This document shows positions 4,227 to 60,632 of a stretch of 64,000 nucleotides of DNA, piece by piece. The notes under the pieces were generated by a model. The model saw only the letters and a program-made list of their open reading frames with translations. It did not search any database and had not been told where the DNA came from. Numbering within the stretch: position 1 is the stretch's first letter; every line of letters starts with the position of its first letter. Origin of the DNA: Escallonia rubra (Eukaryota; Streptophyta; Magnoliopsida; Escalloniales; Escalloniaceae); assembly GCA_033065855.1 (NCBI GenBank), contig JAVXUO010002499.1, positions 24,148-88,147 on the forward strand, in the 5' to 3' direction. Position numbers and translations under genes: made by a program.

Positions 4227-4273
4227 AGGTGAGCATCGTACTGCAGTCTGTCTATCTTCCGCACTCAGTCTCC

Positions 4274-19735: not shown

Positions 19736-19757
19736 CCTCCCCAGCGGAGTCGCCAAA
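19736..19757 (-). promoter_or_regulatory. Primer-binding site of element 2 (reverse)
   Basis: Reverse complement reads ATTTGGCGACTCCGCTGGGG directly after the 5' LTR end ...CAGCATCA, the same motif as in elements 1 and 3. Confidence 0.75.
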
Positions 19758-31245: not shown

Positions 31246-31749
31246 GCACACGCGCACACACACACACATTGTTCCCCACCTATTCGGATCGCACCCCATG
31301 GCCCGCTAAGGGACCCATTTTTGCGTGACACATCACCCATTCACCAGTCAATTATTCAATGCCATTAGCCGGTCAAAGTGCATCTTCCTTCGAAACATCC
31401 ACAGGCAATCAGGTTTTCTGTCGTTAAACATTACTTGGAAGAGCGCCAGACCCTTAAAGGGGTCGGCCACCCTTGTCTTGGGGGGAGGGCTGCTGACCCC
31501 TTTGGCATCTCACTCAACGCACTCTCTATAGTGCTCACTCACCACGAGTGATCCCTTGACACTCATCGCCGCGCCCATGCGCTGCGCCACTTTCATGACG
31601 TCCCCGGGCACCAGACATCATCTCGCGACACTCGTCATTCTCATGATACGTGCACCGGCACCAGGTATTGTCTCGCGACGGTAGTCGCCACTCCCATGCA
31701 CCACAATCATGTTACGTGCTTCCGGGGGGGCTCCACTCGTAGTGCTCCC

Positions 31750-32350
31750 GCATGAGGACCTCTCGCAGTGGGATGAACTCGTTACCACAAAGTCATCGGC
31801 CCCACAGGATGTGCTCGTTACCACAAAACCATCGCCGTAAAAATCACAGGGGGCTCCGGCACGAGGACCCCTCACAGTGGGATGGACTCGTTACCATAAA
31901 GTCATCGCCACCACGGGATAGGCTCGTTACCACAAAGCCATTGCCGTCATAATCACGGGGGGCTCCGGCTCGAGTAGCGGGATGAACTCGTTACCACAAA
32001 GTCATCACCGCCACGGGATGTGCTCGTTATCACAAAGTCAGTGCCGTCATAATCACAGGGGGCTCCGCTCGTAGTGCTCCGGCACGAGGACCCCTCACAG
32101 CGGGATGGACTCGTTACCACAAAGCCATCACCGCCGCGAGATAGGCTCGTTAACACAAAGCCATCGCCGTCACAATCACAAGGGGCTCCGACATGAGGAC
32201 TCCTCGTAGCGGGATGGACTCGTCACCACAAGGTCATTACCGCCACGGGATGTGCTCGTTATCACAAAGCCATTGCCGTCACAGTCACGGGGGGCTCCGG
32301 CACGAGGACCCTTCGCAGCAGGATAGACTCGTTACCACAAAGTTATCGCC
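31750..32350 (+). repeat. Direct repeats marked by CGTTACCACAAAG, 5' LTR
   Basis: About six copies of a unit of roughly 100-120 bp containing CTCGTTACCACAAAGTCATC, a GGGATGxGCTCGTTACCACA half-repeat and GGGGGCTCCGGCACGAGGAC. It is the counterpart of the 86-bp unit in element 2 (reverse complement shared: GAGGGGTCCTCGTGCCGGAG). The 3' LTR keeps about three. Confidence 0.75.
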
Positions 32351-32703
32351 GCCTGGTTTGACTTGCGTGACTCTGAGCACTGAGCTGTGATCATATTCGA
32401 TCATGTTACCGTTGATCGTCGACACCACCGGGACAACCACTGTCAGGTTCTCTGCGCGTCTCTTAACGCCCCTTGTGGGATTCAGTAAAGGCTTGGAACG
32501 GTGGCTGGGGAAACGAGCTTACTCTAATCACGCTACCACGGTGTGGTTAGTCTTCTCAGACAGACAAAGAGATGCCTCGTGGGCAAGGCAGTGCGGATAT
32601 GGAGACCGGCAGTCCAACGGAGAATCGGTACTTTGGAACCCCTTGGTGACGTGTCACTCCCAGGACACAACACATGTCAGCTGACGATACAAGCATACTT
32701 TTG

Positions 32704-32714
32704 TCTATAAATAG
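32704..32714 (+). promoter_or_regulatory. TATA box, 5' LTR of element 3
   Basis: TCTATAAATAG followed by AGGACTTTGAAACTCA; the same sequence is at 51111-51121 in the 3' LTR (CCTATAAATAG). Probable LTR promoter core. Confidence 0.7.
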
Positions 32715-33056
32715 AGGACTTTGAAACTCAGTTAAGTGATCTTGCTCTCATTTGACATTTTTATTTTCTCTCTCTAAAAAGCCTATTGTCTCTGAAATTC
32801 TAGTGAGAGAAACATATTTGGACTTCTGACATCGGACCCCTAACGCTGCACCCCTAACTTGGACTATCGACTGCCGGCCCTATTCGTCGTCACCCTACCT
32901 GCACAGCGCTGCCAGCCCTCACGGCCTGTCTGGGGAGCCTTACTCTCCGCCCTTACTCCGTCATAGCTGTCTCTTACTTTGCATACTTGGAAACTGACTC
33001 GGACTGCAGCCTTTGTGACACCTCCACGTAGGTACGAACCCACTTTCCTGGACATT

Positions 33057-33079
33057 ATTTTGGCGACTCCGTTGGGGAG
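33057..33079 (+). promoter_or_regulatory. Primer-binding site of element 3
   Basis: ATTTTGGCGACTCCGTTGGG directly after the 5' LTR; one difference from element 1 in the core. Confidence 0.75.
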
Positions 33080-35889: not shown

Positions 35890-37540
35890 GCGGGGGCTCC
35901 AGGTGGTCTGTCATCTGACCCCCTCGACCCCGACCTGCCCACAGAGATAGAATGGTGCTGCACGGCTGAGCATTGTCAGCCAAACCCCGAGCTTACCCCG
36001 GGCACTGACCCGCCCTGCTACGAAGACAGCCCTACACCGCAAGCCAAAGATCTTGAAGAAATCAACCTGGCACACCCGGGAGAGGAACCACGACTGCCAT
36101 ACAGTGGCACAAAACTTGCCCCAGGCCAAAGAGAGGAATTGGTTACCCTCATTCGCGAATATCGTGATGTATTGGCATGAATTTGCAACGAGATGCCTGG
36201 ATTGGACCCTGCCTTGGTGACGCACCATCTCAACGTTGCTACTGGATCCAACCCTGTCCGACAGTACCCATGGTCTTTTCGCCCCGAGCTCGAATTGAAG
36301 ATCAAACAAGAGATAGAGCGACTTCTGCAAGCTGACTTTATTTAGCCAATTACTCACCCCATATGACTGGCTAATGTTGTCCCTGTCCAACAAAAGAGCG
36401 GCCAAGTCCACGTTGGTATTGACTTTCACTACTTGAACAAAACATGCCCTAAAGATGAGTTTCCACTACCCAATATCGACATGCTTACGGAGGCTGCCGC
36501 CGGACAGGAGACCTTGTCCTTCATGGACGGTTTCGCCGGCTACAACCAAATTCGAATAAATCCGGGCGATTGTGCCAAGAAAGCCTTTTGGACTCCAACG
36601 GATAACTTTTGTTGGAAAGTCATGCCCTTCGGTCTCAAGAATGCGAGTGCTACCTATCAGAGGGCCATGACAACCTTCTTCCATGACATGATACACCGTA
36701 CGGTGGAAGACTATGTTGACAATCTCATCATCAAGTCTAAGAAGGAAAGCGAGCACCTCGCTGACCTCCGAGCAGTCTTTGATCGTTGTCGCCAGTACAA
36801 CATGCGGATGAACCCACTGAAATGTACCTTTGGAGTCTCCTTCGACTAATTCCTCTACTTCTTGGTCAGTCGACAGAGCATCGACATTGACCCTTCTAAG
36901 GCCGCCTCCATTCAAGAGATGCCCCCACCCAAAAGCACCAAACAGTTGAAGAGCTTCCTCGGTAAGGTTTCTTACCTCCGTCGATTCATCCCTGCATTGA
37001 CCGAACTTATCACACCCTTCCAGCATTTGACGCGCAAGAGCGCACCGTGGAGTTGGGGTGCGCACCGTGGAGTTGGGGTGCGCCCCAACAACAAGCCTTC
37101 GAATAGATCAAAGCGGTCATCATGTCATCGCAGACCATGGTCGTGCCACAACGAGGTATCCTCCTCTTGCGGTACTTGACCTCCACCCCCAGGTCCATAG
37201 GGGCATTGCTTGCCCAAGAGATAGATGGAGTGGATCGTCCAGTTTATTATCTCAGTCAGTCCATCAGGGGACCCGAAGCCAATTACTCTGAGCTCGAAAA
37301 GCACTGCTTAGCCTTGGTCTACGCCTCGCAGAAATTCAGACACTACTTTTTGTCATACCAAATCACACTTGTCACCAAGGCTGATCCACTACAATACATG
37401 CTCACGCGCCCTGCCCTGTCGGGCCGCCGTACATGCTGGTTATTGCTATTGGCTGAGTTCGGCCTATCCTTCAAGAATCCTATAGCTATGTGGAGCCAAG
37501 CACTTGCAGACCTCCTAGCCTTTTTCCCACGCCAACAGTA
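35890..37540 (+). pseudogene. Decayed reverse transcriptase and RNase H of element 3
   Basis: RT is in one frame from about 35890 to 37060, with in-frame stops at 36178, 36343, 36364 and 36847. Motifs seen: VGIDFHYLNK, FPLPNID, FMDGFAGYNQI, MPFGLKNASATYQR, and the catalytic box as YVDN (36712-36723), where the second aspartate expected in YxDD is asparagine. A 20-bp tandem duplication at 37041-37080 shifts the frame; after it a stop at 37104 and the RT-linked RNase H (RPVYYLSQSIRGPEANYSEL, to about 37540) follow. Both the stops and the catalytic change make it inactive. Confidence 0.87.
37041..37080 (+). repeat. Perfect 20-bp tandem duplication in RT/RNase H
   Basis: CGCACCGTGGAGTTGGGGTG occurs twice in a row. 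The second copy shifts the downstream frame by two and is the only frameshift between about 35890 and 39677. Confidence 0.92.
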
Positions 37541-37559
37541 TGAACCAACCTCAGATCAA

Positions 37560-38126
37560 TTGCCTGGGGAGGAAACGGCTCTGATCTCTGACCTAGATGA
37601 ATTATGGACGCTTGAGTTTGACGGCTCCGCCCCTAGCAAAGGTCCTAATGGAGCTCCCCTCCGGCAAGGGGGTGCTGGTATAGTCCTTCGCAATCCGCAG
37701 GGTGTTACCACATCCCTATCCTTCAAACTTACATTCCCGGTATCTAACAATGAAGTCGAGTATGAGGCCCTTGTCATCGGTCTCATGCTAGTTATCAGCA
37801 TGGGGGCTAAATCATTATGCATAAAGAGGGACTCAAACTTGATCATGAAGCAGGCTGACGGGGAGTTCACGGTTAAGGAGCAAACTTTGGCACCTTATCG
37901 CGCCCTGGTACAACACTTGGAGGGAAGACTTGGCCATGTCCAATATGAACATCATAACAGATGCCACAACCGACATGCAGACATCTTGGCCATGATCGCA
38001 TCAAAGATAGAAGTTGACGGTGAACAGCGCATGCTAACCATTATCAGAAGGATAACACCATGCATAACATTGAATTTAGTCCCAAAGGACACTACTGCAG
38101 ACGATTGGAGGCAGCCAATCATCGAC
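37560..38126 (+). pseudogene. Second (archaeal-type) RNase H of element 3
   Basis: Continuous with the preceding RNase H in the frame 37122-38129. It has all four expected acidic positions: LEFDGSAP, NNEVEYEALVIGL, KRDSNLI and NRHADILAMIAS. An additional RNase H of this kind between RT-RNase H and integrase is diagnostic for the Tat lineage of plant Ty3/gypsy elements. The domain itself is uninterrupted, but the frame stops at 38127, so the polyprotein would end before integrase. Confidence 0.87.
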
Positions 38127-38130
38127 TAAC

Positions 38131-39677
38131 TTAAGGCGACATCTCTTGCTTCTGCCTCTACCCTCACAGATTTCTTGATGTTGGGAGACGTCTTGTACAG
38201 ACGATGTCCCGGAGGCACTCTGGCCAGGTGTTTGGCCCGAAAAAAAGCAAAGCACAAACTACAGCTGGGCCATCAGAAGTGTTGTGGCCTCGATGGTCCC
38301 CCTCTATACCGTCGCCTCCAGCGCATGGGCCTCTTTTGGCCATCCATGGCCAAAGATGCTTCAGATGTACAATGGGATTGTTTCGAATGCCTATATGCTC
38401 CAGATAGCGCGAAAGCTCTTATCATCAACGTCGAGGGTGACTAGCGTCAGCCCTTCATCCAATATCTATCTCATGGGATTCAACCATCTGACCGTAGCTC
38501 GGCACGATCCATCAAATGCAAATCGGTCAGATATTTTGTAACGGAAGGCGAGCCGTTCCGCATAGGGTTTTTGGGGCACACCCTGCGATGCTTGCAAGGT
38601 GCCCATGCTGTGGAAGTAATTAATGAAGTGCACAATGGTGCTTGTAGGGAGCATCAAGGATCGCAAAAGATGTAGGCAGAACTCCTAAGGTTGGGATACT
38701 ATTGGCTGACTATGGAATCCGATTCCATCTCTCATGTCCGACATTGCCAACCCTCTCAGAGACACGCTGACAGAATGCACACACCGACGTCTGACCTTTG
38801 TATGATTATGGCCCCCTAGCCATTTCACTCTTGGGCTCTCGACCTCATCGGCCCCATACACCAGCCATCGAAAGGTCACATATGGATCATGGTCGCGACG
38901 GAGCATTTCACAAAATGGGTAGAAACCATACCTCTTCGAAAAGCCACGGGGGGCGCCATCGCCAACTTTTTGCGTGATCACAACATATGTCGCTTCGGCA
39001 TCCCCCGGTGCATCATCTCTGACAACGGCACACCATTCATCAACCGGGATGTTTAGACTCTTATGGAAGCAGACGACATCAACCACACCACATCGACCCC
39101 TTATTATCCGCAAGGCAATGGTCAAGCTGAAGCCTCCAACAAAACTCTATTGAGTGTATTGTCACAAATGGTCCATGACGCAAGCGGCTCCTGGTCTAAA
39201 AAGCTAAGCCTTGCCCTTTGGGCTTACAAAACTTCTAGGCACACAGCCATGAAGGCCACACCTTTTTCCCTTGTCTACGGGGATGAATGTGTGGTACCAG
39301 CCGAGATTGCAGTCACCTCGGCTCGACTATCCCTCAGCAGTGATCTCGGGGAGGAGGAAACCAGAATGGTTGCCCTTGAGGGCCTTGATGAAAAAAGAGC
39401 CAACGCCATGCGCCGAATGAAAAAATATCACGAACAACTTGTCAAAGCCTACGGGAAGACAGTCAAGCCTCGCTCATTCGTAGAAGGTGACCTTGTCCTC
39501 CAAGCCGCCAAGCATGTACATGCCAACCTGTCAGCCCCTAAGTTCACACCCAACTGGGAAGGACCATTTGAAGTGCATACAATTAAAAGCAATGGTTCTT
39601 ACCTTTTGCTCAATCCCGATGATGGACAGATCATAGCCCCTGTCAACGGTCGCTGCCTGAAGAAGTATTATGCATGA
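38131..39677 (+). pseudogene. Decayed integrase of element 3
   Basis: All in one frame, with in-frame TAG stops at 38442, 38673, 38817 and 39054 and no frameshift. Two zinc-binding-like modules precede the core: 38175-38440 (GGTLARCLARKK, LYRRLQRMGLFWPSM) and 38445-38790 (HNGACREHQGSQKM, LRLGYYWLTMESD). The core has WALDLIGPI, IISDNGTPFIN and YYPQGNGQAEASNKTLL, giving the three acidic catalytic positions. 39480-39660 is the C-terminal chromosome-binding region (GPFEVHTIKSNGSYLL). Natural end at 39677. Confidence 0.87.
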
Positions 39678-39878: not shown

Positions 39879-39895
39879 TTGCACTACAAGAAAAC

Positions 39896-40240
39896 AGGCT
39901 TTTAGCGACGGGGAAATGCGTCGCTAAAAGCCCAAAATCCGTCGCTAAAAGAATTAGCGACGGATTCACCGTCGCTAAAAATCCCTCGTATAAAAGCCCG
40001 TCACTAATAGTTTAGCGACGGAATTTTTAAATCCGTCGCTAAATATGTCATTTTTACCGACGAATTTATTTTTTATTAGCGACAGATATTCAGTCGCTAA
40101 TTATATTTTTAGAATTTTCATTTATTTTCTTTTTTATCAAATTAGCGACGGATTAAATATTTTAGCGATGGAATATTCCGTCGCTAAATAACTTATTGTA
40201 GGAATACTTTTAGCGACGGAATTAATCCGTCGCCAAAAGT
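39896..40240. repeat. CACTA subterminal repeats, left
   Basis: About a dozen copies of TTTAGCGACGG / CCGTCGCTAAA in both orientations, often as adjacent inverted pairs. In CACTA elements such subterminal motifs are binding sites of the element-encoded accessory protein. Confidence 0.85.
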
Positions 40241-40548
40241 CAATTTTTTTTTGAATTTTTTTTTTATTTTTCAATTACCCAGACCTGTAATACAATTTTC
40301 AATTCTCAACAACAACACGCAATAATCGATACAGAAAGAAATATATATAATCGATTATAAAAAATATTTATTATAAAAAAAACTCATACATGTACAAGCC
40401 GGGAACCGGATACAGCCGGTTAGGAGAGGGGAGAAGAGTACAAGCCGAGCGCGGGGGGGGGGGGAAGCTAGGAACGGGCACGGGAAGGGGCTCATCAGGG
40501 GTTGCCGAGTCCTGGATCTGGATCCTGCTGATCCGGGGTCGGCTCGGC

Positions 40549-41805
40549 TTATCCAGCAGTGCCCTGCTCCCTGATCATCCTCACCACCACTGTAGCAATG
40601 CGCTGGATCTCCTTGTCGTCCAACTGAGGACGAGGAGCCGGTGTCTGTGGAGGGGCAGCAGGGGGTGAGGACGCTCCTATCACGGCACGAGCAGTCGTGC
40701 TAGGCAGGTCGCGTATGCGGCCTTTCGGCCGATTCACGACCTCCGGCGTATCCAGCCATCGCTTCAACCCCCCCGTACTCGCAGTCGTACTAGTGGACGC
40801 TGATGGCTGTCCGGACTGCTACTCGGACCCCCTTAGCTGTTCATACGAGGCCTGCAAAAATAGTGGTTTAACGATATGTTAGGGCATTAATTAACGAAAC
40901 GGACATTGAGGATAGAAAGAAAAAACATTAACAACTTAAATAAATTGACTCACATCGATCCGCCGGGCAATATCTGAAATATAGTCGCCCGCCCGGTGCA
41001 TCTCGTCCTTGTCTTTCTTCCGCACGTGCGTCTGAGTATAGGTCAGAGCTATGACCTGATCCTTCTCCAGATCCGGGTGCTCGACCGCGTTCATGTGTCG
41101 GACGATGTCGTGTGGCACCGACCCCCCCGTGTGCGTCGGATCTCTGTTCTGTCTGTTTTCAGCCCCGCTCTTACTCTTGGCGTCCCAACCTGGATCCGCA
41201 GCCCACCGATCTATCATCTCCCCCCATACACGGTGAGATATCCAATGTGGGGGATATCTCGTCATGTCCGTCATCGGGGCACCCGCGGGCAGCACTTTCT
41301 TCGCCTGGTCCCGTGCATTGCGGTAATTCAACTGTAATAACCTACTAACCGCAGACAGACGTGTGTGTTTCGGAGCTCCATCCCACAGCGGCTCTTCCGC
41401 AGCTCTCAACAACTCATAAAACTGATGAACCCCCTCGTTCGGCGGTTGTGGACTGTCGTCACCCCAGTCAACATTAGCATGCCCAGCATCCATAATCATA
41501 TCTCGGTCATCATAACGTGCCTCCTCCCTAACTTCAGTTTGAGTAGTCGGGTTGGACGACAATACTATCGTTTCCCCGTGCTGCGTCCACCTTGTGTATC
41601 CACCCATAAAACCGTACCGACGAAGATGCCATTTTACTTCAATTCTTTTTCTCCAGTGCAACAACTCACATCTACCGCACGGACACCTTATCTTATCAAG
41701 GTCAACATGTGCAGGATGCGCATAAGCGAAGTCGAGAAATTCGTCAACGCGATACTCAAAATCTTCAGCATTCTTCCTTTTCATCCAACTTCGATCGACT
41801 GACAT
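40549..41805 (-). pseudogene. CACTA transposase-associated gene, two exons, one stop
   Basis: Exon 1 runs 41805-40954 (284 codons). It has the transposase-associated domain at residues 1-75 (SWMKRKNAEDFEYRVDEFL, CPCGRC, LRRYGFMGGY) and a later region with ALTYTQTHVRKKDKDE, as in plant En/Spm proteins. A GTGAGT donor follows at 40953 and a TTTGCAG acceptor at 40852; the 102-bp intron joins the frames in phase 0 (...RRID|ASYEQLRGSE). Exon 2 (40851-40549) has one in-frame TAG at 40821-40819, then LKRWLDTPEVVNRPKGRI to the stop. Apart from that stop it is complete. The catalytic transposase gene is absent. Confidence 0.82.
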
Positions 41806-42595
41806 GACGACTGAATTATCGTACTGTATACCACCTTCAATTATGACCAGTGAGTAGGCATTGCCGATGTAAATATGACTGCATGAATGTTACAACATGT
41901 CTACATATTTCCCCTCCACTCTTCAACAGGTAGTGGTCCTATCCCATTCAGAAAAGCACATGTTTATAAAACAGTTTTTAACTCATGCTTAGTCCCATGT
42001 CTGTGAAAAATTCGGCAGCACCTCCCCGCATTTCTCCAAGTACACGACATCGATTAGGTGTTCTAACATTCATCTAACCTTGCTCAAGAAGGTTTGACGG
42101 ATGTTAGAAAACCAGATCTGTATGCACCCGGAGAAACACACGAGAACGTGTACCAAATATCCACGACATAGAACACAAAGCATGAATCAAACACTGTTTT
42201 ATAAACAATTAGTTTTTCCAAATTGTCCAAACTGGACATCCAAAGGCTCATTACAAAGCATTACTTTGTAATGAGTACCTTTGAACGGGAACTAAGGGTT
42301 TCTATGCATACATGCGTTCAGAAATTGATAACATATGCAAGAATCTTTCCAAAATATCAAAACTGCAGAAAGATCGTTACATATGTTACCAATTCCACAT
42401 TAAATAGAATTCGTTGGCAACGAGTTGAACCATCTCGTTGCCAATGGACTTCTCAAAACAACAACTAATATAAAGAAGGCAGGGTTTGTAAACAACGAGT
42501 AATTGAACATTCTCTGGGTAATATGGAGTAATTATGGGAAGGACAAGGGCTAATTAGGGCTAACTGTGTTATTAGGGTTAATTACGAGTATTAAT

Positions 42596-43030
42596 TATAG
42601 CTAATTAGGGTTGATTAGGACTAATTAGGGTTATTTAGTCCTAATTAGGGTTTAATTGTGCCGAGTAGTGCTGATTAGTCCTAATTAGGCTTAATTGGGT
42701 TATGTTAGGACTAATTCATGCTAATGAGGGCTAGTTTGGCCTAATTATAGCTAATTAGGGTTGATTAGGACTAATTAGGGTTATTTAGTCCTAATTAGGG
42801 TTTAATTGTGCCGAGTAGTGTTGATTAGTCCTAATTAGGCTTAATTGGGTTATGTTAGGGCTAATTAATGTTAATGAGGGCTAGTTTCGGATAATTATAG
42901 CTAATTAGGGTTGATTAGGACTAATTACGGTTATTTAGTCCTAATTAGGGTTTAATTGTGTCGAGTAGTGTTGATTAGTCCTAATTAGCGCTAATTAGGC
43001 TTAATTGGGTTATGTTAGTGCAAATTACGA
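42596..43030. repeat. 150-bp tandem repeat, about 3 copies
   Basis: TATAGCTAATTAGGGTTGAT begins units at 42596, 42746 and 42896, exactly 150 bp apart. Each unit is itself made of short CTAATTAGGG / TTAGTCCTAATTAGG motifs. The third unit diverges towards its end. Confidence 0.87.
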
Positions 43031-43639
43031 CTAATTAGGCTAACTATAATCAATATGCGCGTAATTGGGTTCATTTTGGCTAATTTGGGGTAATTACAGC
43101 TACTTTGATTTTCATTAGGTTCTTAGGGTTAATTAAAACTAATTAGGCTCGTTAGAGCTAATTAATTAGGGTTAATTGATTTATTAAAATATTTATTTTT
43201 TAAATGTCGAACACCGTCGATCAGACGTGGTGTCCGTGTCTGCGCTAACTAACAGGTATCTCAATCCAATTGGGTCCCATCCTCCGTCAACAATCTCAAT
43301 TCTCAATTCTCAAATGCCGCCCAATGCAATAAAAATTAACAAAAATCACACATTCAATCCAATTGGGTCCCATCCTCCGTTAATAATCTCAATATCTCAA
43401 ATGCTCAATGCACAATTAACAATCTAAAATCATCAATTAACAACCTAAAATCATCAATTAATAATCGCAATTACTTCAAATGCACAGCTAATAACCTAAA
43501 ATCATCAATTAACAACCTAAAATCACAGATCAATAATCACAATTCTCAAATACACAATTAACAACCTAAAATTATCAAACAAATTATCAATGTTCAAATA
43601 GGAAAAAATTGTTCAAAATGCACATATCTGATGCGCTTG

Positions 43640-44350
43640 AATTATTTCAATTTAGGGTTCGATTATATTAGGGCATTCAATTTAGGGTTCAATTAGTTTA
43701 ATTTAGGGTTCGGTTCGATCACGGGCATTCAATTTAGGGTTTAATTAGGGTTCAATTACATCAATTTATGGTTCAATTAGGAGGTTCTATTGAATCAATT
43801 TAGGGTTCGGTTGATTTGGGGCATTCAATTTAGGGTTCAATTTAGGTTTCAGTTGGATTAGGGCATTCAATTTAGGGTTCAATTAGGGGTTAATTTAGGG
43901 TTCGATTCGATTAGGGCATTCAATTTAGGGTTCGATTGGTTAGATTAGGAATAATTACGGTTTGATTAGGAATAATTGGGAACAAATTAAGGATAGTTAG
44001 GGTTTATCCGGGCTAGTTATGCTTTAATTAGGGTTTAGGGTTTAAGGTTAACCGGTTCAAACAGGTTTAATCGGAGCTAATTACGGTTAATTGGTTCAAT
44101 TAGGGCTAATCAGGGCTAATTAGGGTTTATTGGTTCAATTAGGGTAAATCGGGATTAATTAGGGCTTATTGGTTAGATTAGGTTGAATCGGGGTTCATTA
44201 CAATTAATTGGTTCAGTTAGGGTTAATTCGTTCAATTAGGGTTACGCGGGGTTAATTACTGTTAATTGGTTAGATTAGGGATAATTACGGTTTGATTAGG
44301 GTTAATTTGGTTCAATTAGGGTTACTTGGGAACAAATTAGGGATAATTAG
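43640..44350. repeat. CAATTTAGGGTT and CAATTAGGG degenerate repeats
   Basis: Many irregular copies of ATTCAATTTAGGGTTC and TTCAATTAGGG. They contain TTTAGGG, the plant telomere unit, but never in uninterrupted tandem, so this is internal CACTA filler and not telomeric DNA. Confidence 0.7.
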
Positions 44351-44852
44351 GGTTTAATCGTTACAATTACATTACAACAAATTAAATTCAATTACATTAT
44401 AGCAAATCAAATACAATTACATTACAATAGATTAACTACAATTACATTATAACAATAGATTTAATGCGATAAATAATTTCTAGCATACAATTACATTATA
44501 ACAATAGATTAATTCAATACGATAAATAATTTCTAACCGGGAAAAAAGTGAGTTCAGGCAGTGGTGGTGCGAGGTGGATGACGACAGTGGCGCACAGAAG
44601 GCAGCGTCAGAGGGTGGTGGTGCGGCGAAGGGGGACGAACTGTGGCGATGGTGGTGTGACTGTGAGGTGGTTGTGGCAGTAGTGGGGTAGCTGCGAGGCG
44701 GCGATGTGGCAATGGGGACGATAGATCTGAGGGGAGAGGGAAGGGCGGTGTGGTGGTGGCGGGGGGGCCTATCGCCGGAGTGGGGGGCTGGTGGGGAGGG
44801 ACGGAGGCGGGGGCCTGTCGCCGGCGTGGGGGGCTGGTGGGGAGGAAAGACG

Positions 44853-44889
<37 letters not shown>

Positions 44890-44905
44890 CTGGGTATTTA
44901 AGAAC

Positions 44906-45140
44906 ACATTTAGCGACGGACTTGTCCCGTCGCTAAAGATCCGTCGGTAAAACCATTTAGCAACGGTTTATACCGTCGTTAAAAAACCGTCGTTAAACGT
45001 CTGTCGGGAATGGTTTTACCGACGGATTAGTCCGTCGGTAAAATATTTTTTTGGACAACGTTTTTACCCACGGAAATTCCGTTGCTGAAAACACCTTTAG
45101 CGACGAAAGTCGTTCCGTCGCTAAAAGTCCGTCGCTAAAA
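44906..45140. repeat. CACTA subterminal repeats, right
   Basis: About ten TTTAGCGACGGA-type units in both orientations (TTTAGCGACGG, CCGTCGCTAAA and variants such as TTTACCGACGG and AACCGTCGTTAAA), matching the left end. A GA microsatellite (44855-44886) lies just inside. Confidence 0.83.
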
Positions 45141-46549
45141 CCCTTTTTTCTTGTAGTGTTGTTAATTTCTGGTCACCAAGTTATTTGCCCTTGGCGGGAA
45201 GAGGGGAACACCGGTAGGCAACCATCAGATATAAGACATTCAACAATCGCAATAGACAACAAGCACACCATGCATCAAAAACAAGAACCAACAGGACCAC
45301 ACGCAACCATACTCATAACATCAACATATACAAATATACATCTGGAGTTTGTCGGCCACTATCGGGCGCTGTTAATACATACAACTATCATGCACCCTAA
45401 AGGAAGCTATACAACAACGCTGCAACCGTATGCGAGCAAAAAGCCTGCAATGTCTAAGGTTGAACCTGCAGCGCAGACCATCCAGCCTCAAACTCGGTAT
45501 GTCGCCTCAGTCGCTCAGCCTCTCGCACCTCTATATTAGCCCGCCTCCTCTGTGGGTCCCCCAGCTGTCTCTGTAGATCAGTCAACTGCCTCTTTATATC
45601 CGCTACCTCCTTGTCAATCACGGCTAGCTCCCTGGTAATCTCTCTCCGCTCCATCTCTAACCCTGAACGCCACCTCTCAAGCAACATCTCCTTCATCCGC
45701 ACCAAGGCCATCCTCTTCCCCACAGCCCCACCCTCGCTCCTCGACCTCAAGAAGTCGGCCAGCCAATCCAACTGCAAACCCAGGGATGTAAACGACACAA
45801 ACTCTGTCAGCGACAGCTCAATGACCTCTGTCGTCCAGCCCGTCACAGGGACACTAGCAAAAGGCAGCAGCCACTCCACGAACCCTACATACACCCACCT
45901 CTGTAGTACTGGGTTCCCCACAGTGACTCCCTCAAATGTCTGCGGGAATACTGCCTTCACCAGCTCCAGTCGGCGTACCGTCTCGACAAGCAACTGGAGA
46001 CTCTCCCACGATGCGACATCGGCCTACCCACTCGAGGATCCCCTACTGGCCTCTCGACTGCTGCCCCACTCCCCCCACCACAGGCCTCTCCGGTACTCCT
46101 CCTGCCGCCTGTGCACCAACAGTCATCGAGTGCATCGCCATCAGTGTCGCACTAGCCTCGACAACCGACCCCGACGACGCATCCTGCTGACGCTTCACAA
46201 TAGGCCGAATCGACGTCTCCACCTCATGCGACGGGGCTGCAACCACAGGCTCCAACTCTGTCGAGTCATCCTGCTCACCTACTGCGCCCTCACTCTCTGT
46301 GCCCACCCACCAGTAGCCACCCGCATCAAACATCAGCAACTCGTCGACCGGTTCACCGTACACATCCTCAACTCTCTCCTCAGCGCCCGACAGTGGACTC
46401 ACCCTCCTGCTCACCCCGACCCCAGACGTGTTGGCCACCTCCGGCTCATCCCTATCCACTGGCTCATCAGCCTCGGCAACCATCGCCTCCTCTGCCTCGG
46501 TAACTGCACCAGCATCGCCGACCCCCTCAACCGCCTACTCCTCATACTC

Positions 46550-46643
46550 CTGTCAAGGTCACCATCAGTCCATATACACTTTTATTGTTATGTGCCACCA
46601 ATAAACAAAACTTAACAAAATATATATTAACAACAAAGCTTAC
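46550..46643 (-). other. Intron 2 of antisense gene
   Basis: Minus strand GAG|GTAAGC ... CTTGACAG|GAGTATG. AT-rich (TTAATATATATTTTG) between GC-rich exons, 94 bp, GT-AG. Joining keeps the frame, which supports it as a true spliceosomal intron. Confidence 0.75.
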
Positions 46644-47855
46644 CTCAACCGCTGGCTCCTCTAATGCATCTCGTGGCCTCTTCGACCCTGCCAGACGTGA
46701 ACCCGAGGTGCCTGCACTAGCCTGATGAGCACTCTCTATCATCCCAACTCAAAATGCCGACAGCGACCCCTTGCCGGCCCCTGACACCCTCGGCACCGGC
46801 ACCACTGGCTCCTCTCCACGGTCCTCCCCCGGGGCATCATCCTCAAACCCCTCGGCCTCCTCATCTACATCTCTCTCCGAGCTCACTGCAGAACTCCCTG
46901 ACACTAGCACCAGTATGCCAGCTTGTCTCGCAGCTGTCGCTGATATCAAGCTCAAAGCCCGGTCACAGGCAAACACATCAACCAGCTGATGTGTAACTGA
47001 CGGCTGTGCCAACCAGTCTGCCCAACTCGCCCACAGCCACTCCCACCAATGTGCATACTCCACTGTCACTGCCCCCGCTACCGCTGTCCCCGGCCGCCTC
47101 CACTCTGTCACCGGTGCCGGCCACTCACGGACTCTATCATACCGCGTGTACCCAAACGGGATCGTCACACTCCACGGGATGCGATACCCACACAGAGGCT
47201 CGAAGTCATAACCAAACGCCAGTGACAGCCGGTCCGGACAATACCTGGCCGTATAGTACATATTCTCAGCAGGCTTCCCGCCATCATCTGTCATCACCGG
47301 AAGCCAACCCGAAAAATACGCCACCAACAGTACAACATGCGCTGGTGCCAAGTCCCATTTCCTGGTCAAGTCTGTCGTCATCTCCTGTCCATGTAACCAG
47401 GGGGTACTCCGTATGACACATGCATATCTCTGTATGGTCACGCCAAGCATGCCTCCCGCAAATCTATCAGCAGTGACAACAGACAATCTGACCTTCTGAT
47501 GCCCACCCATGCAAATTCCCGTGACCCGCTGCACCACAACGCCACCTCCCGCGACCTACCTCCCTGCGTCACCGTCCTCATCCTCGGTGCCGAATACTCG
47601 AGCGAGTATCCTGCCTGCCGATAGTCTGGAAAGCACTCGTATAAATATTTCTACAGGAACATCCAGTCTACGTATGCCACCACCTGATACCGCCCGTACA
47701 ACCGCTTCACATCATTCACGAACTGATCTAGCCATGAATACAGTGTGCCAAGATATACGGGAGCCAGCCAGACACGCTTTCCCTCGGCCATCCGAATCGC
47801 CAGGGGAATCACCCTCGGAGAAATACCATCCTCCGGCGTCCCCTCAAACACAAAT

Positions 47856-47942
47856 CTTCAAGCACACGGTAACTCATTATACATGACAAAAATAGCATAT
47901 GACATATGCAAGCATACAATATATGGACAGTACAATGCTCAC
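47856..47942 (-). other. Intron 1 of antisense gene
   Basis: Minus strand TCGAG|GTGAGC ... GCTTGAAG|ATTTGTG, 87 bp and AT-rich. Splicing restores a conserved stretch of the plant mobile domain across the junction, which neither unspliced frame gives. Confidence 0.8.
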
Positions 47943-49369
47943 CTCGACAAGTACATCGTCAAGAAGGCCACCATCTCATACCGCTCATTCTTGTGATACG
48001 GCCCCATCACGAAATGGGCGACATTGCCCAACCTCAGCCCCGACCTCGCCTGAGCCGTCCCATAGAACCATCGGAGCCACCCACCGTACGTCCCCTTCCG
48101 GTGCTGCCTCGTCTTCGACAAGATATCCAGTAGCTGCGTCTGCAACAGTCGCTCCTCGCCACTAAGCCGCGTCACACGCGCATCCAACTTTCCATGCATC
48201 GGCAGCCCTGTCAACATCAGTACATCCAGCAGCGTCGGCCCAATCTCTCCAAACTCAGTCACAAAGGTATGTGACTGCGTGCTCCACCTCGACAGCAGAA
48301 GGGTTATCCCGGGCGTATCTCTATACAACTCCAGTCCCCTCCCGGTAATATCTATCGCCGACAGTAATCCCAACGTCTGTAATAGTACCTCCCACCGTGG
48401 CATCTCTACCATATGCTCGCACCAGAAGTCCCACCCAATCGGCGTCGCACTATGGCCCTTGAAAACCACAGGCGACCAGGGTATATCCTCTCTCCACCAA
48501 CAACCCCGGAACATATCTCGGTGACGTCACGGGTGCCTCCTCCCAACTCAGAGCCCGTACATATGGTGATGGCACCCGAGGATCCTCTCCCATCGACGAA
48601 CCACTCCACGGCACCGTGAAAGCTCCATCAGCCACTTGAAATGGCCAGCTCCCTCCACAGCTCCCCGTCAGGTACAGACGGTACTACTCCCTTCACTCCC
48701 AACAGCGTGTTCATCTTGTCCGTGTCTGGATCATATGTTCTCACTGAACCATCGTCAAAGGTCAATGGCACTCCCGTCTCCTCCCCCGGCGTAGCTGCAG
48801 CCTCATCTGTCGGCGGCGCGGGCATCGGTTTTGTTGTCATGATCCGCAATGGCCGCGCTGCGCTCGCCGCCACATCTCGCGGCTTCGCCCACATCTTCTG
48901 CTTCACCTTTTTCAGAACCGGCATCGGCTCGGCAGGCGTGGCCCTTGGCCCCGCCGACCTCCTTGCTGCCGCTGACCCCCCTGCTGTCGCCGACCCCCTT
49001 GGCCCCGCCGACTCCCTTTCCTCTCTTCCTCTTCCCCCTAAGCCTGTAGCACCCACCGACGTCCCTTGGCTGGCTGACCCCCCTCCCATCTCCCTCCTCT
49101 CTTCCCTTCCCCCTCTTCCCCGTCGCTGGCTGACCCCCCTACGGGGGGCCGACCCACTCCGAGAGGCCGACCCCCCTCCCATGTCCCCTCTCTCCTCCAT
49201 CCTTTCCCTTTCCCTTTCCCCACCAGCGCCGTCCCCATGGCCCCGTCGACCCCCTTCACCAGCCGACCCTTCGGCCACTTGCTTTCCCTCTCTCACCATC
49301 TCATTTTTTTCTCTCTTGAATGAAAAAAATGCAAATGAGGATTTGTGCAGAAATTTCTTCCCTCCTTCA

Positions 49370-49380
49370 CTATTTATAAG
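49370..49380 (-). promoter_or_regulatory. TATA box of antisense gene
   Basis: Minus strand CTTATAAATAG lies about 70-80 bp upstream of the ATG at 49299 and points away from the 3' LTR. Spacing fits a plant core promoter with a short leader. Confidence 0.6.
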
Positions 49381-49684
49381 GGTGGGCCATCTTTCAATCT
49401 CAACCACCCATTCAAAATTCAAACCAAAATTTTTTCCCACCAAAACCCAATAGCTCTATTTTTCAAACGGTTAAGCCTTTTCGCGCTTAATTTCTTTTGG
49501 CGCGCTGTGTTTCCACTAAACAAAATCGTCACAACTTTTTTTTCACATAATTCATAGTTACAGCTATACAAATTTGCATTACAATTTCTTATTCGCTATT
49601 TTACAAAGTGCACGCTACCCGATCGCAAGCTACACCATTTATGCGTGCGGTGCCCGCTCGGGTTGCTCCTCCGTGTACACCACA

Positions 49685-49697: not shown

Positions 49698-51453
49698 TGT
49701 TCCCAACCTATTCGGATCACCTCTCACCCAGGGCCCGCTAAGGGACCCATTTTGTGCGACACATCACACATTTGCCAGTCAATTATTCAACGCCATCAGC
49801 TAGTCAAAGTGCATCTTCCTTCGAACATTCACAGGCAATCAGGTTTTCTGTCGCTAACGTTGCTTGGAAGAGCGCAAGTCCCTTTAGGGGGTCGGCCACC
49901 TTCCTAAAGAAGGGGGTCGGCCACCCTTTTTAAGGAGGGGTCGGCCACCCTCTTTAAAGGGGGGTCAGCCACCCTCTTTAAAGGGGGTTGGCCACCCTCT
50001 TTAAGGAGGGGTCGGCCACCTCCTAAATGAGGGCGTTGGCCACCCTCTTCAAAAGGGGGTTGGCCACCCTCTTTAAGGAGGGGTCGGCCACCCTTGTCTT
50101 GGGGGGAGGGCTGCTGACCCCTCTGGCATCTCACTCAATGCACTCTTTACAGTGCTCACTCACCACCAGTGATCGTATGACACTCATCGTCACGCCCATG
50201 CACTGCGTGCCACTTTCATGACATCCACAGGCACCAAATATCGTCCCGCGACACTCGTCGCCGCTCTCGTGTGCCATTCTCATAATACGTGCACCGGCAC
50301 CAGGTATTGTCTCACGACGATAGTCGTCGCGCCATTGCGCCACAATCATGTTATGTGCTTCCGGGGGGGCTCCGCTCGTAGTGCTCCGGCACGAGGACCC
50401 CTCGCAGCAGGATGGACTCATTACCACAAAGTCATCGCTGCCACGGGATGGGCTCGTTACCATAAATCCATCGCCGTCACAATCACGGGGGGCTCTAGCA
50501 CGAGGACCCCTCGCAGCGGGATGGACTCGTTACCACAAAGTCATCGCCGCCACGGGATGGGCTCGTTACCATAAAGCCATCGCCGTCACAATCACGGGGG
50601 GTTCTACTCGTAGTGCTCTGGCACTAGGACCCCTCACATTGGGATGGGCTTGTTACCACAAAGCTATCACCGCCTGGTTTGACTTGCGTGACTCTGAGCA
50701 CTGAGTTGCGATCATATCCGCTCATGTTACCATTGATCGTCGACACCACCAGGACAATATCCGCTCACTCCGGGACGGGAGCAGGATCCTGGAGGGCATC
50801 GCGCCTAGTCCACTTGGCAGTTGGCTACAGGGGAAACCCTTGCCGCTTGCAGGTTCTCTGCGCGTCTCTTGACGCACCTCATAGGATTCAATAAGGGCTT
50901 GGAATGGTGGATGGGGCAACGGGCTTACTCTGATCACGCTACCACGGTGTGGTCAGTATTCTCAGATAGGCAGAGAGATGCCGCGCGGGCAGGGCAGTGC
51001 GGATATGGAGACCGGCAGTCCAACGGAGAATCGGTACTTTGGAACCCCGTTGGTGACGTGTCACTACCAAGGGACGACACATGTCAGCTGATGACACGTG
51101 CATACTTTTGCCTATAAATAGTGGACTTTGAAACTCATTTAAGTGATCTCGCTCTCATTTGACATTTTCACTTTCTCTCTCTAAAAACCTATTCTCTCTG
51201 GAATTTTAGTGAGAGAAACACATTTGGACTTCTGACATCGGACCCCTGACACTGCACCCCTGACTTGGACTATCGACTGCCGGCCCTATTCGTCGTCACC
51301 CTACCTGCACAGCGCTGCCAGCCCTCACGGCCTATTCGGGGAGCCTTGCTCTCAGCCCTTACTCCGTCCTTGCTGTCTCTCACTTTGCATACTTGGAATC
51401 TGACTCGGACTGCAGCCTTTGTGGCACCTCCACATAAATACGAACCCACTTTC
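49698..51453 (+). repeat. 3' LTR of element 3
   Basis: 1756 bp starting TGTTCCCAACCTATTCGG and ending CGAACCCACTTTC. The last nine or so bases present in the 5' LTR (CTGGACATT) are missing where it meets ACACAC. It has nine GGTCGGCCACCC units against one in the 5' LTR, and about three CGTTACCACAAAG units against about six. Confidence 0.83.
49885..50100 (+). repeat. GGTCGGCCACCCTCTTTAA tandem repeat, 9 copies
   Basis: Nine units of 23-26 bp built on GGGGTCGGCCACCCTCTTTA. The 5' LTR has a single unit near 31464, so the array expanded after insertion, or contracted on the other side. Confidence 0.87.
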
Positions 51454-52180
51454 AACACACACACACATGAACTACACACCAACACACATTGCTCACCTCA
51501 CATCATACGCTGCACCCACCCACCCCACACAAAATGTACACACCCACGGCAAATACTTAAGACACACACCCCTCTTCACCAACCACACACGCGCGCGCGC
51601 CCGCACACACACACACACTACACAGTCATTTTCACGACTACGAACATACAACACAATGCACAATAAATTCTCACCCCCCCTCGACGGGGGCTAAAAACAC
51701 ACATTAACAAGGAAAAAGAATTACCTGGGAAATTCCCATAAATTTTCCCTTCTTCTTCTCTCTCTCTCATTTTTCTTTTCTTTCTAAATATTTTCCCCAT
51801 TATGTTTTTATAAATTAGTCACCATCCAAAAAAGTAGGAGGTGGCGATTGTATGACAATTTTTCTTAAAATTTGACACATGTATGCATATTTTTCATAAT
51901 TACAAAGTAGCCCCCAACACTTTCTATAATTACAAACTAACCACAAAACCTCAAATAATTATATGTTGACCCCAAAACAATTTTAACCTTTCAAACTATA
52001 CCTATTCTCGATTATTGCTAAAAATTATCGCCGCTTTATTTTTTCAACCAACAAATAATTAGTTCCGACATATCTAAAAAGTACGGGATGTTAGAATGCA
52101 AAAATAGATAAAGAAAGCCTTTACCTAATGGTTAGTGTTTATACAGTATAATGTTCCAAGTGTGAAAACTGAAAACCCCT

Positions 52181-53974: not shown

Positions 53975-56900
53975 GCGTTACATGTTGGAGACATTGTGGT
54001 TCAAACAATATCTGGAAACCTTATGAATGTTCCTGATGTTGCTGAATATTATGACCCTCTCCAATATCCATTATTGCTACCATGCGGGAGCTACGAGTGG
54101 GATACTAATAATAGAAACAATGACGGCTCAAGTGTTACATGCCGCGACTACTACACTTTCATGCTACATGTGAAGGACTCTTTTAGCACATTGAAAATAT
54201 TAATCAAATTCAAAACATTCTCTTAACCCAAACCTACTAATAATTTCTTTTGTTAGATTCGTCAAACTCATCCATCACTTCTGCTTCGTGGTGGACGCTT
54301 ATTTCAGCAATATGTTGTCGATAATTACGTGAAGCTTGAGTCTCACAGGTTAAGATGGCTACGTCGGCATCAAGAAACTATACGAGGATAAATATATCAA
54401 GGTTTATAGGATATGTTAGACATAGGCGAAAATGATGCAGATGTAACTTTTACTTTCCTAAAAGTACTTGAATTAAAATTCCTAGAAAAACACATTCTAA
54501 TCCATTTACTTATGTTGTAATAGAACATGTTGGTTGACGGACGATATTGCCATCATCATTTACTGGAAGTCCCCGTGACATGTACCAACGCTATCAAGAT
54601 GCAACGACATTAGTACAAAGACACGGGAAACCATCTATTTTCCTCACCATGACTTTCAACCCATCATGGCCAAAAAATTTCAAAAAATCACAAGATCGTC
54701 ATGATTTGCTTACTAGGGTATTCCGAGCAAGATACGAAGAGTTGAAGAAAGACATTATGGATAGAGGAATATTTGGCAAGGTGGTTGTCCATTTTTCTGA
54801 TGTTTGAATTTCAGAAAGGAGGGTTGCCACATGTTCATCTGATTCTAATCTTGCATGAAGATGATAAGTTGCATACCCCTAAAGGTTATGACCACATTGT
54901 TCGAGCTGAGATACCTTATAGGGATGAAGAGCCTGAATTGTATAATGCAGTTTTAAGGCATATGATACATGGCCCATGTGGTGTGCAAAGCCAAAGAAAC
55001 CCGTGCATGAAGAATAGAAGTTGTAAAAAACAATTTCCAAAAGCATTTTCTGCGATAAAAAAATTGGGGGATGACTCATACCCGATATATTGCAGGAGGG
55101 ATGACGGGAGGTCTATTGCTTTAGATCAACGTGGGGAGGTTATGGTTGACAATCGTTGGGTTGTGCCTTATAATCCATGGGTGCTACTGAAATATGATTG
55201 CCACATCAATGTTGAAATTTGTTGTACAATAACAAATGTCAAGTACATGTACAAGTATGTGCACAAGGGTCCTAATTGAGTATGTTTGAAGTTCGTCCAG
55301 GTCCTTCTTTCGATGAAGTTAAGCACTTCAAAGATGCAAGATGGATATGTGCACCCGAAGCATTCTGGAGATTGTTTAAGTTTCCCATCAGTCGTATGTA
55401 TCCATCGGTTGACCGTCTTCAGATTCATATTCCAGGTAGGCAACATGTGAGGTTCTATACTCATCAAACCATTTCTGATGTGCTGGCCAACGATAAAAAC
55501 AATCGTACAATGCTCACATAGTTCTTCAGATTGAATTGTGAAGACCCAAGTGCAAAGCAGTATTTGTATCGGGAAATTTCATAGCATTAGCGATGGGTGT
55601 TGAGTGAAAAAACTTGGTGCGGAAGACGTAGCAACCAAAAGTAATTGGAAGAATATATACAATACCACCATCTGATAGTGAATTATTTCATTTAAGGATC
55701 TTGCTTAATCATGTAAGGGGCAACAATCTTTTGAAGATTTACTCACTGTAATGGTGTCACATATCTAACTTTCAAGCAAGCTGCAGAGAAAAGAGGCCTA
55801 CTTGAGAATGATAATAGTGTCAATCAGTGCATGTTAGAGGCAGCTCGAACATGTATGCCTTCAGCATTACGACTTTTATTTGTGACAATATTGGTATAGT
55901 GTGAATCGAGTAGAATACGCCAATTATAGGATGAAATTTATCATTTCATGGTTGAGGATTACCCATCTTCGAGTATTAGAACCAATGTTTATATCACGAA
56001 CAAGGTTTTTCGAGCTATTAATGCTTTATTGCAAACTCATAACAGTAGTGTTACAGAGTTTGATCTCCCAAGGATGAGAGGAGATTTTGATGATAGTGCC
56101 GAAATCCCAAAAATAATACAAGATCAGCTATCTATTGCTATTTCGCAGGAACACTTGGAATCGGTTGGTACACTTAATAATGACCAAAAGTGTGCATTTG
56201 ATGCTATAATGGGAATGATCGAGCGCAAAGAGAGTGCAATATATTTTGTTGATGGCCAGGAGGAACTGGAAAAACATATCTGTACCGCGCCTTTTTGGCA
56301 ACAATTAGAAGTGATGGTAACATAGCGATTGCAGCGACATCTTTTGGAATAGTAGCAACGTTATTTCCTGGAGATACAACAACCCATTCCGTGTTCAAGT
56401 TGCCACTAACTCCTGAGGCTACATCTATTTGCTCAATAAGCAAATAATCTAATTGAGCTGAATTGTTGAGGTGGGCTTCGGTCCTAATTTGGGATGAAGC
56501 AACAATGGCTCATAGGTATGCACTTGAAGCTCTTCACCGAACATTACGTGACATCATTGGTGTTGATCTTCCTTTTGGGGGAAAGGTTGTGGTTTTGGGT
56601 GGTGATTTTCGTCAAGTTCTATCGGTTGTGCCAAAAGGTGGAAAGTCAGAAATCATTGATGCGTGCATCACGAGATCATATTTATAGTCCGAGGCCATGG
56701 TTCTTCGGTTGAAGGAGAACGTGAGACATAGGAATGACCAACAATCTACCGAGTACTTATTACGAGTTGGAGAAGGAACTGAACCCACTGTTGTTGATGA
56801 GATGATTGAGGTTAATTCAACCATGGTTATAGATTGGGAAGGACCGCAGTTGGTCAATAGATTAATCGATGAAGTTTTTTCCAATTTAGATTCGCATGCT

Positions 56901-57569
56901 AACAGCCAGAGATATATGACTGACATATCACTAGTAACGGCACTAAATGAGCATGCAAATATGTTGAATAAGAAGGTGATCCAAAAGTCTCCGGGGGATG
57001 AATGTATCTACTACTCATATGATAAAGTTAAGAATGACGCACATCTTCTATACCAGCCGGAGTTTCTCAACTCTATTACACCCAGTGGTTTGCCCCTACA
57101 TGTTCTGAGATTGAAAAAAGGGTCTCCTGTTATGTTGCTAAGGAATTTTGATCCAAAAATTGGTTTATGCAACGTACAAGGCGGTTGTGTCGTGAACTTC
57201 ATGACACCTATATAAATGTTAAAGTTATGACGGGACACCATAAGGGCACAAGGGCATTCTTGCCTAAAATAAGATTGAGAATAATTGATAGTGCAAATCT
57301 TCCATTTGAGATGGTTCGTTACCAGTTTCCAGTGCGCCTTAGTTTTACTTTCACAATCAACAAAGCACGAGGTCAAATAATACCGAATATGGGGATCTAC
57401 CTTTCAGATCATGTATTCAGTCATGGGAAAACTATACGTGGCATTGTCCAGAGGAACATCAAAGGAAGCAACAAAGATATTGATTAAGCAAGGAAGGATT
57501 GACAACATGGATACATTATACACAAAGAACGTTGTTTACACAAAAGTGTTACAAGCGTCACGTCTATGA
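53975..57569 (+). pseudogene. Decayed Helitron Rep-helicase
   Basis: Remnant of the rolling-circle transposase of a Helitron. Segments in order: 53996-54226 (YYDPLQYPLLLPCG), 54278-54391 (GRLFQQYVVDNYVKLESHRL), 54547-54807 (SSFTGSPRDMYQRYQDATTL), 54790-55279 (FQKGGLPHVHLIL, the HUH histidines at about 54830-54838, and KYMYKYVHKG with the candidate catalytic tyrosines near 55245-55265), 55276-55521, then the PIF1-type helicase: 56180-56325, 56463-56687 (LIWDEATM Walker B, VVLGGDFRQVLSVV), 56697-57215, 57230-57487 (TINKARGQIIPNMGIYLSDH) and the end ALSRGTSKEATK to TGA at 57567. Many frameshifts and stops; the Walker A region at 56255-56275 is out of frame. Non-functional. Confidence 0.87.
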
Positions 57570-59299: not shown

Positions 59300-60632
59300 G
59301 TCACTACCTCTCTGCTCACAATCGCCACCCATGGCCACCACAATTAGATTTGTCCCATCACCACTCTTGACCCGAAGCTGAGCGCGCGCACACAGTGAGA
59401 CCCAATTGTCGGCAAAGGTTCTCTATCCTTCTACTATGGATGCTAGCCATATATAGTTCGGAGACTACGTAGTCCAGCTCCAATCAGTCCACCACGCCGA
59501 GGTCCGCTCCATTCCATTTCTTTTGATTTCTGACTTCTCAAAATGCTCAATCATTTATTCATTCATTCACGTGTTAGTTTGTTTAGCTCAAAGATTAGCA
59601 GAAACTCTCCCTGCTAATTGGTTTAATATACTACTGCTTTATTGAATTGATTATCAGAATAATCCTTAGTGTGTTGGCCTTTCATCGTTCTAGTCCATAA
59701 GATTGTAATGACCGTGAAGAATAATGTTGCCCACTTTAATCGTGGAACTGATTACTTGAACCAATTTGGTCCGTCAGCTACTTTTGCGACGACATTAGAA
59801 ACGCTTGGTCATACTTATTCAGTTTATATGTTCTTGTTTGGTGCCAGAATGCATAAAAGCTCCAGTAATCAGATCCTACTAATTGATGGAGGAGCCGGTA
59901 AGTTTTCCCATTTTTTCTTTACTTCATATCTTACGTTATCATTCAGGAAAAGGCCCATGGTGTTTGTTATTTGCAGACAGGATAATGCCTTTCCTAAGAC
60001 AGTGGTAATGGGGGAGACTAGAATAGGGTTAAATGTTGTTCGATGTAGAATGCAAAGGATTTAGGTTAAGCAGAACTAAGAGTACCATGGGAGCACTTGT
60101 GATAAAAGACCTCATTGCTATGGATTTTGGAGAAAACATGTGTTTGGATAGGGGAGAATGGAAGAAAGGCTTTATATACCTACCATAACTATTTTGGGAC
60201 AAATGCTTTGATGATTATGATCTTTTGTCTTACCTAAGTCAAACGGCATGGCAGATGGATTTTGGTTAGTTCGTATAAGCTATTATTGATTGCGCTAAAG
60301 ACCTTAGCTGCACGAAATGTTAAAGGGAACCAGATCGCGTGCAACGGTTTTTGGATTGAGGAGCGTCACTCGTATAGCGTGTTTTGGATTCGAGCAGGAG
60401 CGGGTGCAAGGTTTGGGAGCGAGATTTCGGGGTGGGAGCGTCACTAGAAGTGGAGGATCCTGCAACTACGCTAAGGACCGTGGCGTCAATGTGAAATCAT
60501 TAGCAATGAATGCCCTTTGGCCTTTGTTACAAAGAAAAACTTCCTTTTGTGTCATTTTATTATGTTCTTAATCAGTAATCTTTTTGGAGGTAACTCACAT
60601 TCTTTGTTCCTGCAATTTGTTCCTTGTTTCAG
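59300..60632 (+). other. Putative 5' exons and introns of BTB gene
   Basis: The main coding exon starts at a splice acceptor, so its start codon must lie here or the main exon must use another start. A CATATATAG TATA-like sequence at 59449 and a CA/CT-rich stretch after it could be a promoter and leader. A candidate exon is 59693-59897 (after TTCTAG, before GTAAGT), with an ATG at 59708 and 63 codons. It ends in phase 1, whereas the main exon begins in phase 0, so it cannot join directly. No resemblance of that peptide to a known family is seen. Confidence 0.45.

Follow-up and report, generated by a model that had tools for sequence, protein, structure and literature searches.

A predicted antisense gene with two introns and a plant mobile domain in an Ogre-type retrotransposon family of Escallonia rubra

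Extra open reading frames (ORFs) with a plant mobile domain (PMD) are reported for 57% of Ogre elements (Neumann et al. 2019, PMC6317226), and no other extra domain was found more often in a survey of plant Gypsy elements (PMC9289625). The Ogre clade is also characterized by an additional RNase H and by an Arg primer site (PMC6317226, PMC9289625). Antisense ORFs have been described in Retand elements, where they lie between pol and the 3′ LTR and some clusters also show Smc-like matches (Vicient 2025, PMC11963269), and in maize Grande, whose gene23 lies antisense in the long 3′ part of the element, has a promoter to itself and yields a nuclear product (PMC7264820). Extra ORFs with a PMD are therefore already published for Ogre elements, as are antisense ones for Tat elements. 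The locus from Escallonia rubra described here shares with the Ogre ORFs the PMD, the additional RNase H before the integrase and the Arg primer site (PMC6317226, PMC9289625), and with the Retand ORFs its place in the element. It differs from the former in that these were defined as open frames no shorter than 250 codons, with introns, selection and promoter unmentioned in the relevant passages of PMC6317226, and from the Retand ORFs in that the parts of PMC11963269 describing them report TRP28 in place of PMD. Grande-type genes are set apart by the lack of clear similarity to other proteins, as stated in the section of PMC7264820 that treats them. The word "intron" is absent from the main text of both the Retand paper (PMC11963269) and the review that covers Grande gene23 (PMC7264820).

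We analyzed a stretch of 64,000 nucleotides, hereafter the window, from contig JAVXUO010002499.1 (G000:C61:24148-88147) of the Escallonia rubra assembly (566 Mb, 3222 contigs), which was also the one genome searched for copies. A DNA search with 45454-49299 gave at least 58 matches, the best 40 of 560 first-look candidates being scored, and the best window matches among these 560 candidates were aligned as a set of 30 loci, the window's own included. A second set came from a search with integrase DNA alone, which gave at least 40 places (best 40 of 519 candidates scored); 10 of these 40, from contigs absent from the gene list, were examined. The PMD is highly repeated in this genome, with at least 216 matches in a profile search for which 112 of 5238 candidates were scored. 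The reading that we favor, with a probability of about 0.85, is that the window holds an accessory protein gene of an Ogre-clade family, located on the antisense strand in the interval from integrase to the 3′ LTR and equipped with a promoter of its own and two spliceosomal introns.

Comparison of the copies resolves the minus strand from 49299 to 45397 into one three-exon gene. Exon 1 (47943..49299) encodes a basic, G/R-rich N-terminus and the first third of the PMD, covering positions 11-119 of PF10536; its start codon lies at 49299, a column that holds ATG in 25 of the 30 copies. Exon 2 (46644..47855) contains the rest of the PMD and a linker, and exon 3 (45397..46549) an acidic linker followed by a C-terminal helical part with a coiled coil. 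The minus-strand ORF at 47939-48526 matches PF10536 with E=1.7e-12 and 47.6 bits, above the Pfam cut-off of 34.9 bits, which is also exceeded by exon 1 pieces of L033 (39.4 bits) and L042 (52.2 bits). Exon 2 pieces match profile positions 120-194 in L037 (24.4 bits) and 272-347 in L036 (20.7 bits), each alone below 34.9, and the L036 piece carries the domain to the profile end at position 347. The N-terminus has 39 G and 27 R in 213 residues, and the C-terminal heptads were matched or bettered in 18 of 1000 shuffles. A single-sequence structure model of the C-terminal 189 residues predicts one long helix (99-185) and appears reliable for part of that helix only, with pLDDT of 70-91 in ten-residue blocks over 121-180, lower values elsewhere and a mean of 60.6. 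These results agree with a sequence-only reading of the window, which had proposed a minus-strand PMD, a G/R/S-rich N-terminus and a C-terminal coiled coil. That reading ended the gene at 45454, which has to be corrected, since the family stop codon lies at 45399-45397 in 25 of the 27 rows with letters there; a stop at 45454 occurs in two of 30 rows, the window and L021, the latter no longer alignable at this point.

From the summed exon lengths of the window, the predicted product comprises about 1,240 codons. The window copy itself is dead: its exons are interrupted by frame changes and premature stops, and it cannot make the protein. In no copy of the 30 can even one of the three exons be read from end to end in a single frame without a stop, and the family may therefore be dead in this genome. 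A relationship to Transposase_28 (PF04195) was rejected, as this profile gave no match in seven exon pieces from seven copies (E up to 1) or in the window pieces (E up to 0.1).

The two predicted introns, at 47856..47942 and 46550..46643 on the minus strand, have the same coordinates as those first proposed from the window alone. Looking for the same antisense gene with the same introns in other copies had been suggested as a check, and both introns are present in all 30 aligned loci, with cores of 66-68 bp for intron 1 and 69-103 bp for intron 2. Their GC content is 0.36 and 0.31, respectively, compared with 0.58-0.60 in the exons. Donor 1 is GT in 28 of the 30 copies and GC in the other two, donor 2 is GT in every copy, and AG is found at acceptor 1 in 27 and at acceptor 2 in 26; all four dinucleotides are standard in 22 copies, while eight depart from GT/AG at one site at least. 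Intron 1 falls between positions 119 and 120 of the PMD profile, with exon 1 fragments ending at 119 in the window and in L033 and at 118 in L042, and the exon 2 fragment of L037 beginning at 120. Its retention would introduce an in-frame stop in 30 of 30 copies, the first full codon being TGA in 15 copies and TAA in 12, so that a full-length product would need nuclear splicing. The conserved sequence of both introns suggests that they are spliced. No intron-free copy occurs among the 30 aligned, as would be expected if the gene were copied only via the opposite strand, and the earlier proposal that an antisense gene keeps its introns during spread fits all of these copies.

The element carrying the gene is an old insertion, given that its LTRs (5′ LTR 31270..33047, paired with the 3′ LTR at 49699..51454, both on the plus strand) differ by 15.8% (K2P 0.18) in a global alignment of 1540 sites with internal repeats included. 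Its primer binding site (33061..33078, plus strand) is the complement of the tRNA-Arg 3′ end with one G-U pair. No exact tRNA complement to 33061-33078 was found; tRNA-Arg was recovered once R was set at the changed place and one mismatch allowed, and a tRNA-Arg(ACG) with the matching 3′ end occurs at each of the three loci examined in this assembly. The pol remains (36367..39677, plus strand) comprise a reverse transcriptase (36367-36849), an RNase H followed by an additional RNase H (37107-38129) and an integrase region extending to 39677. In Pfam searches the window pol matched RVT_1, RT_RNaseH and then RVT_3; its own broken integrase pieces gave no rve match, and rve and H2C2 were matched in the corresponding ORFs of L019 and L042.

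This element thus has the additional RNase H between RNase H and integrase that is typical of the Ogre clade (the integrase being seen in L019 and L042), the tRNA-Arg primer site apart from one G-U pair, and a PMD extra ORF, as in many though not all Ogre elements. The sequence-only reading had named some Tat-lineage elements, maize Grande among them, as the parallel; on the Arg primer site and the PMD the lineage seems better called Ogre than Grande/Retand. Two more elements in the window share an Arg-type primer site, at 4210-4227 (plus strand) and 19738-19755 (minus strand), the first of these having a gag ORF at 4181-6013. A tblastn search with the gene pieces found no second antisense-gene copy within the window (best E outside the gene 0.11, weakest reported E 1). 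Further along, the plus strand of the window has an ORF with a Pif1 helicase 2B domain (56688-57215), possibly a Helitron remnant, and a 449-aa ORF with a BTB/POZ domain (60594-61943), probably a host gene.

CACTA transposons of the En/Spm class are marked by CACTA inverted ends, a 3-bp target duplication and En/Spm-type domains. One of them, 5.3 kb long, occupies 39882..45158 (no strand assigned) between pol and the antisense gene, and is foreign to the ancestral element. It has ends CACTACAAGAAAA in inverted orientation, a flanking 3-bp duplication CAA/TTG and a transposase-associated domain (PF13963) well above the cut-off, Transposase_24 being weak and below it. A tandem-repeat region lies inside it, around 42592-43174. 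The site is empty in other copies; of five in which it was inspected, L017, L019 and L022 show it cleanly. The position first assigned to the gene, between integrase and the 3′ LTR, is accordingly that of the family, whereas in the window copy this transposon is interposed. The transposon was rejected as carrier of the gene, which lies beyond its ends and is found in other copies that lack the transposon.

The gene belongs to the element family as a fixed component. It sits at the same pol junction in 27 of the 29 other gene-selected copies, 26 of them identified by script (gene side joined to pol side within 49 bp) and L034 by alignment pieces; in L021 and L043 it is not joined to pol. All 30 aligned loci resemble the 3′ LTR side of the window upstream of the gene. 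In the integrase-selected copies, the 3′ flank of the gene adjoins the integrase, with no CACTA transposon, in 10 of 10, and exon 3 is present in nine (partial in L049 and L051), L047 ending after the flank. Pairwise distances of gene and integrase flank are correlated (Mantel r 0.83, with none of 2000 permutations as high) in 24 of the 30 copies, L020, L021, L024, L029, L035 and L043 having been excluded by the length rule of the script. The two trees do not agree throughout: L033 and L037 pair as sisters by gene sequence but are separated in the flank tree, which may reflect recombination. The shared junction (27/29 and 9/10 copies) and the correlated distances support the view, also taken in the sequence-only reading, of an inherited element gene and not an independent insertion.

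Diversity among the copies follows a minus-strand three-base rhythm in the exons, with the usual order of codon positions where it is strong. It loses strength in parts of the N-terminus and at the frame changes of the window, and is weak or absent over introns and flanks; diversity at exon third positions is close to that of introns and flanks. Ka/Ks among copies had been proposed as a check on the gene, and the median dN/dS is 0.31 for the whole gene (435 pairs), with 0.45 for the N-terminus, 0.24 for each of the two PMD parts, 0.31 for the rest of exon 2, and 0.44 and 0.20 for the linker and coiled coil of exon 3. The right frame has the lowest value, the five other frames of the PMD exon giving 0.33-1.69. 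Across biallelic codon sites covered by 20 or more copies, the N/S ratio of the gene falls from 3.24 for private variants (369 N, 114 S) to 2.61 for those in two copies and 1.21 for those in three or more (363 N, 301 S), against a neutral expectation of 2.53 (Fisher p 2e-14 for private versus three or more copies). Variants confined to a single copy thus look close to neutral, unlike shared ones. The drop is from 3.28 to 0.92 in the PMD and coiled coil and from 3.19 to 1.51 in the rest of the gene. The integrase region gives 3.12, 2.21 and 0.66 for the same three classes, and while its median dN/dS is undefined, mean dN is 0.072 and mean dS 0.406 (276 pairs). The few indels seen in the conserved exons mostly have lengths not divisible by three, as dead copies would show. 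Taken together, the N/S spectrum and dN/dS argue that the protein mattered while the element spread, when it was under purifying selection, and that it decayed after insertion, as the integrase did. The constraint on the gene is weaker than that on the integrase.

A predicted antisense core promoter with a TATA motif lies at 49371..49410 (minus strand). The diversity of this block (49410-49371) is 0.13-0.15, compared with 0.25-0.36 in the two 20-bp bins on each side, and bins further upstream are also low, such as 49590-49571 at 0.136. In 25 of the 30 copies the TATA motif precedes the start column by 47-117 bp, which is consistent with use of this promoter by the antisense gene. No clear poly(A) signal was found, the hexamers looked for being present in some of the rows only. 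In the mechanism that we propose, RNA polymerase II would transcribe the gene from the TATA block at about 49380, and splicing would join the two halves of the PMD, yielding a large protein with a basic N-terminus, the PMD and a coiled coil. The packaged genomic RNA would be the opposite strand, carrying no usable form of the splice sites of the gene, and for this reason the introns would enter each new copy unchanged.

How the gene was acquired is a separate matter. The sequence-only reading had supposed that a host gene was captured, and an element taking up whole a host PMD gene with these introns, which would be compatible with an accessory gene, is possible, though we hold it to be somewhat doubtful. 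PMD genes do exist outside elements in this genome (L001-L004, placed by eye), and introns are typical of host genes. However, no donor was found at the few loci examined, none of the PMD matches listed (112 of 5238 candidates scored) breaks at 119/120, and L001 and L011 run through this position. Published work describes PMD proteins of hosts as TE-derived (PMC7156037, in the part bearing on their origin), so that the direction of PMD transfer may have been the reverse. L001-L004 (G000:C922) are four PMD genes that are intronless over the whole domain and form a cluster of about 19 kb. A different source would be a separate transposon, for instance a MULE with a PMD, that jumped into the element and has since travelled as its passenger. 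PMD ORFs stand beside MULE-like transposase ORFs in L009, L010 and L013 (judged by eye, with no domain search), and the CACTA transposon did insert beside the gene in the window copy. We nevertheless consider a passenger improbable: the location of the gene is shared by 27 of 29 and 9 of 10 other copies, selection on it continued inside the element, no long inverted repeats bracket it (matches of 14-16 nt only, in the window and L017), and the PMD exon of L011 continues through 119/120 to position 182. An ancient transposon insertion is a possible origin of the gene.

It has also to be considered whether the antisense transcript works as RNA, by giving rise to small RNAs or by antisense regulation, the protein frame being incidental. 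Antisense transcripts of such elements have been proposed to form double-stranded RNA (in the section of PMC7264820 on this topic), and PMD transcripts yield phased siRNAs in tea (as described in part of PMC10673657). Selection is seen at the codon level, though, with third positions about as diverse as introns and flanks and dN/dS lowest in the right frame, and the codon rhythm, dN/dS and the N/S spectrum are signals specific to a protein, making a purely RNA-based role very unlikely; RNA and protein roles can coexist. Chance frames with chance similarity deserve hardly any weight. Open frames are common on the strand opposite to coding DNA, and long ones arise in GC-rich sequence, but the PMD exceeds its curated cut-off in the window and two further copies, and chance similarity was rejected on the PF10536 match, dN/dS and the N/S spectrum.

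For the accessory protein gene that we favor, a role in countering or tuning host silencing of the element can be put forward tentatively. The product would presumably be nuclear, and one hypothesis is that it mimics host MAIN/MAIL-type proteins. More speculative still is that the element has long carried an intron-dependent gene on the strand that is never packaged, where the introns might help the antisense mRNA to pass as that of a host gene and evade RNA-based silencing, with the PMD protein interfering with a PMD-dependent silencing route of the host. Whether element PMDs are connected with the PMD silencing proteins of hosts becomes testable.

What stands out in this family is an LTR element whose antisense gene has retained both introns in all 30 aligned copies and whose antisense protein was under selection, which offers measurable evidence that an antisense gene mattered to its element. 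Surveys that take extra ORFs as single open frames would fragment such genes. Introns are already known in Ogre and EVADE, those of EVADE being on the sense strand. The Ogre introns are likewise described as sense-strand in the relevant passages of PMC6317226. Additional ORFs of bdelloid rotifer LTR elements are said to be expressed from spliced messages in the part of PMC5408684 concerned, a paper whose single use of "antisense" refers to small RNAs. In the open-access literature searched, as far as its relevant passages go and short of Steinbauerova 2011 and Gomez-Orte 2013, which may say more, we recognized no account of a plant LTR element whose antisense gene bears introns and is under selection. 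HTLV-1 HBZ and HTLV-2 APH-2 are, like the gene described here, spliced antisense genes of a reverse-transcribing element; according to the passages of PMC10186651 on these genes, they differ in having their promoter in the 3′ LTR, and HBZ, from an animal retrovirus, is a bZIP protein; we point to a likeness only and claim no kinship. Penelope elements also disperse intron-containing genes as retroelements, for which an antisense template has been offered as explanation, and the abstract of PMC3846280 sets them apart from all other retrotransposon types in keeping introns. Here, by comparison, an LTR element would keep its introns because the gene itself is antisense.
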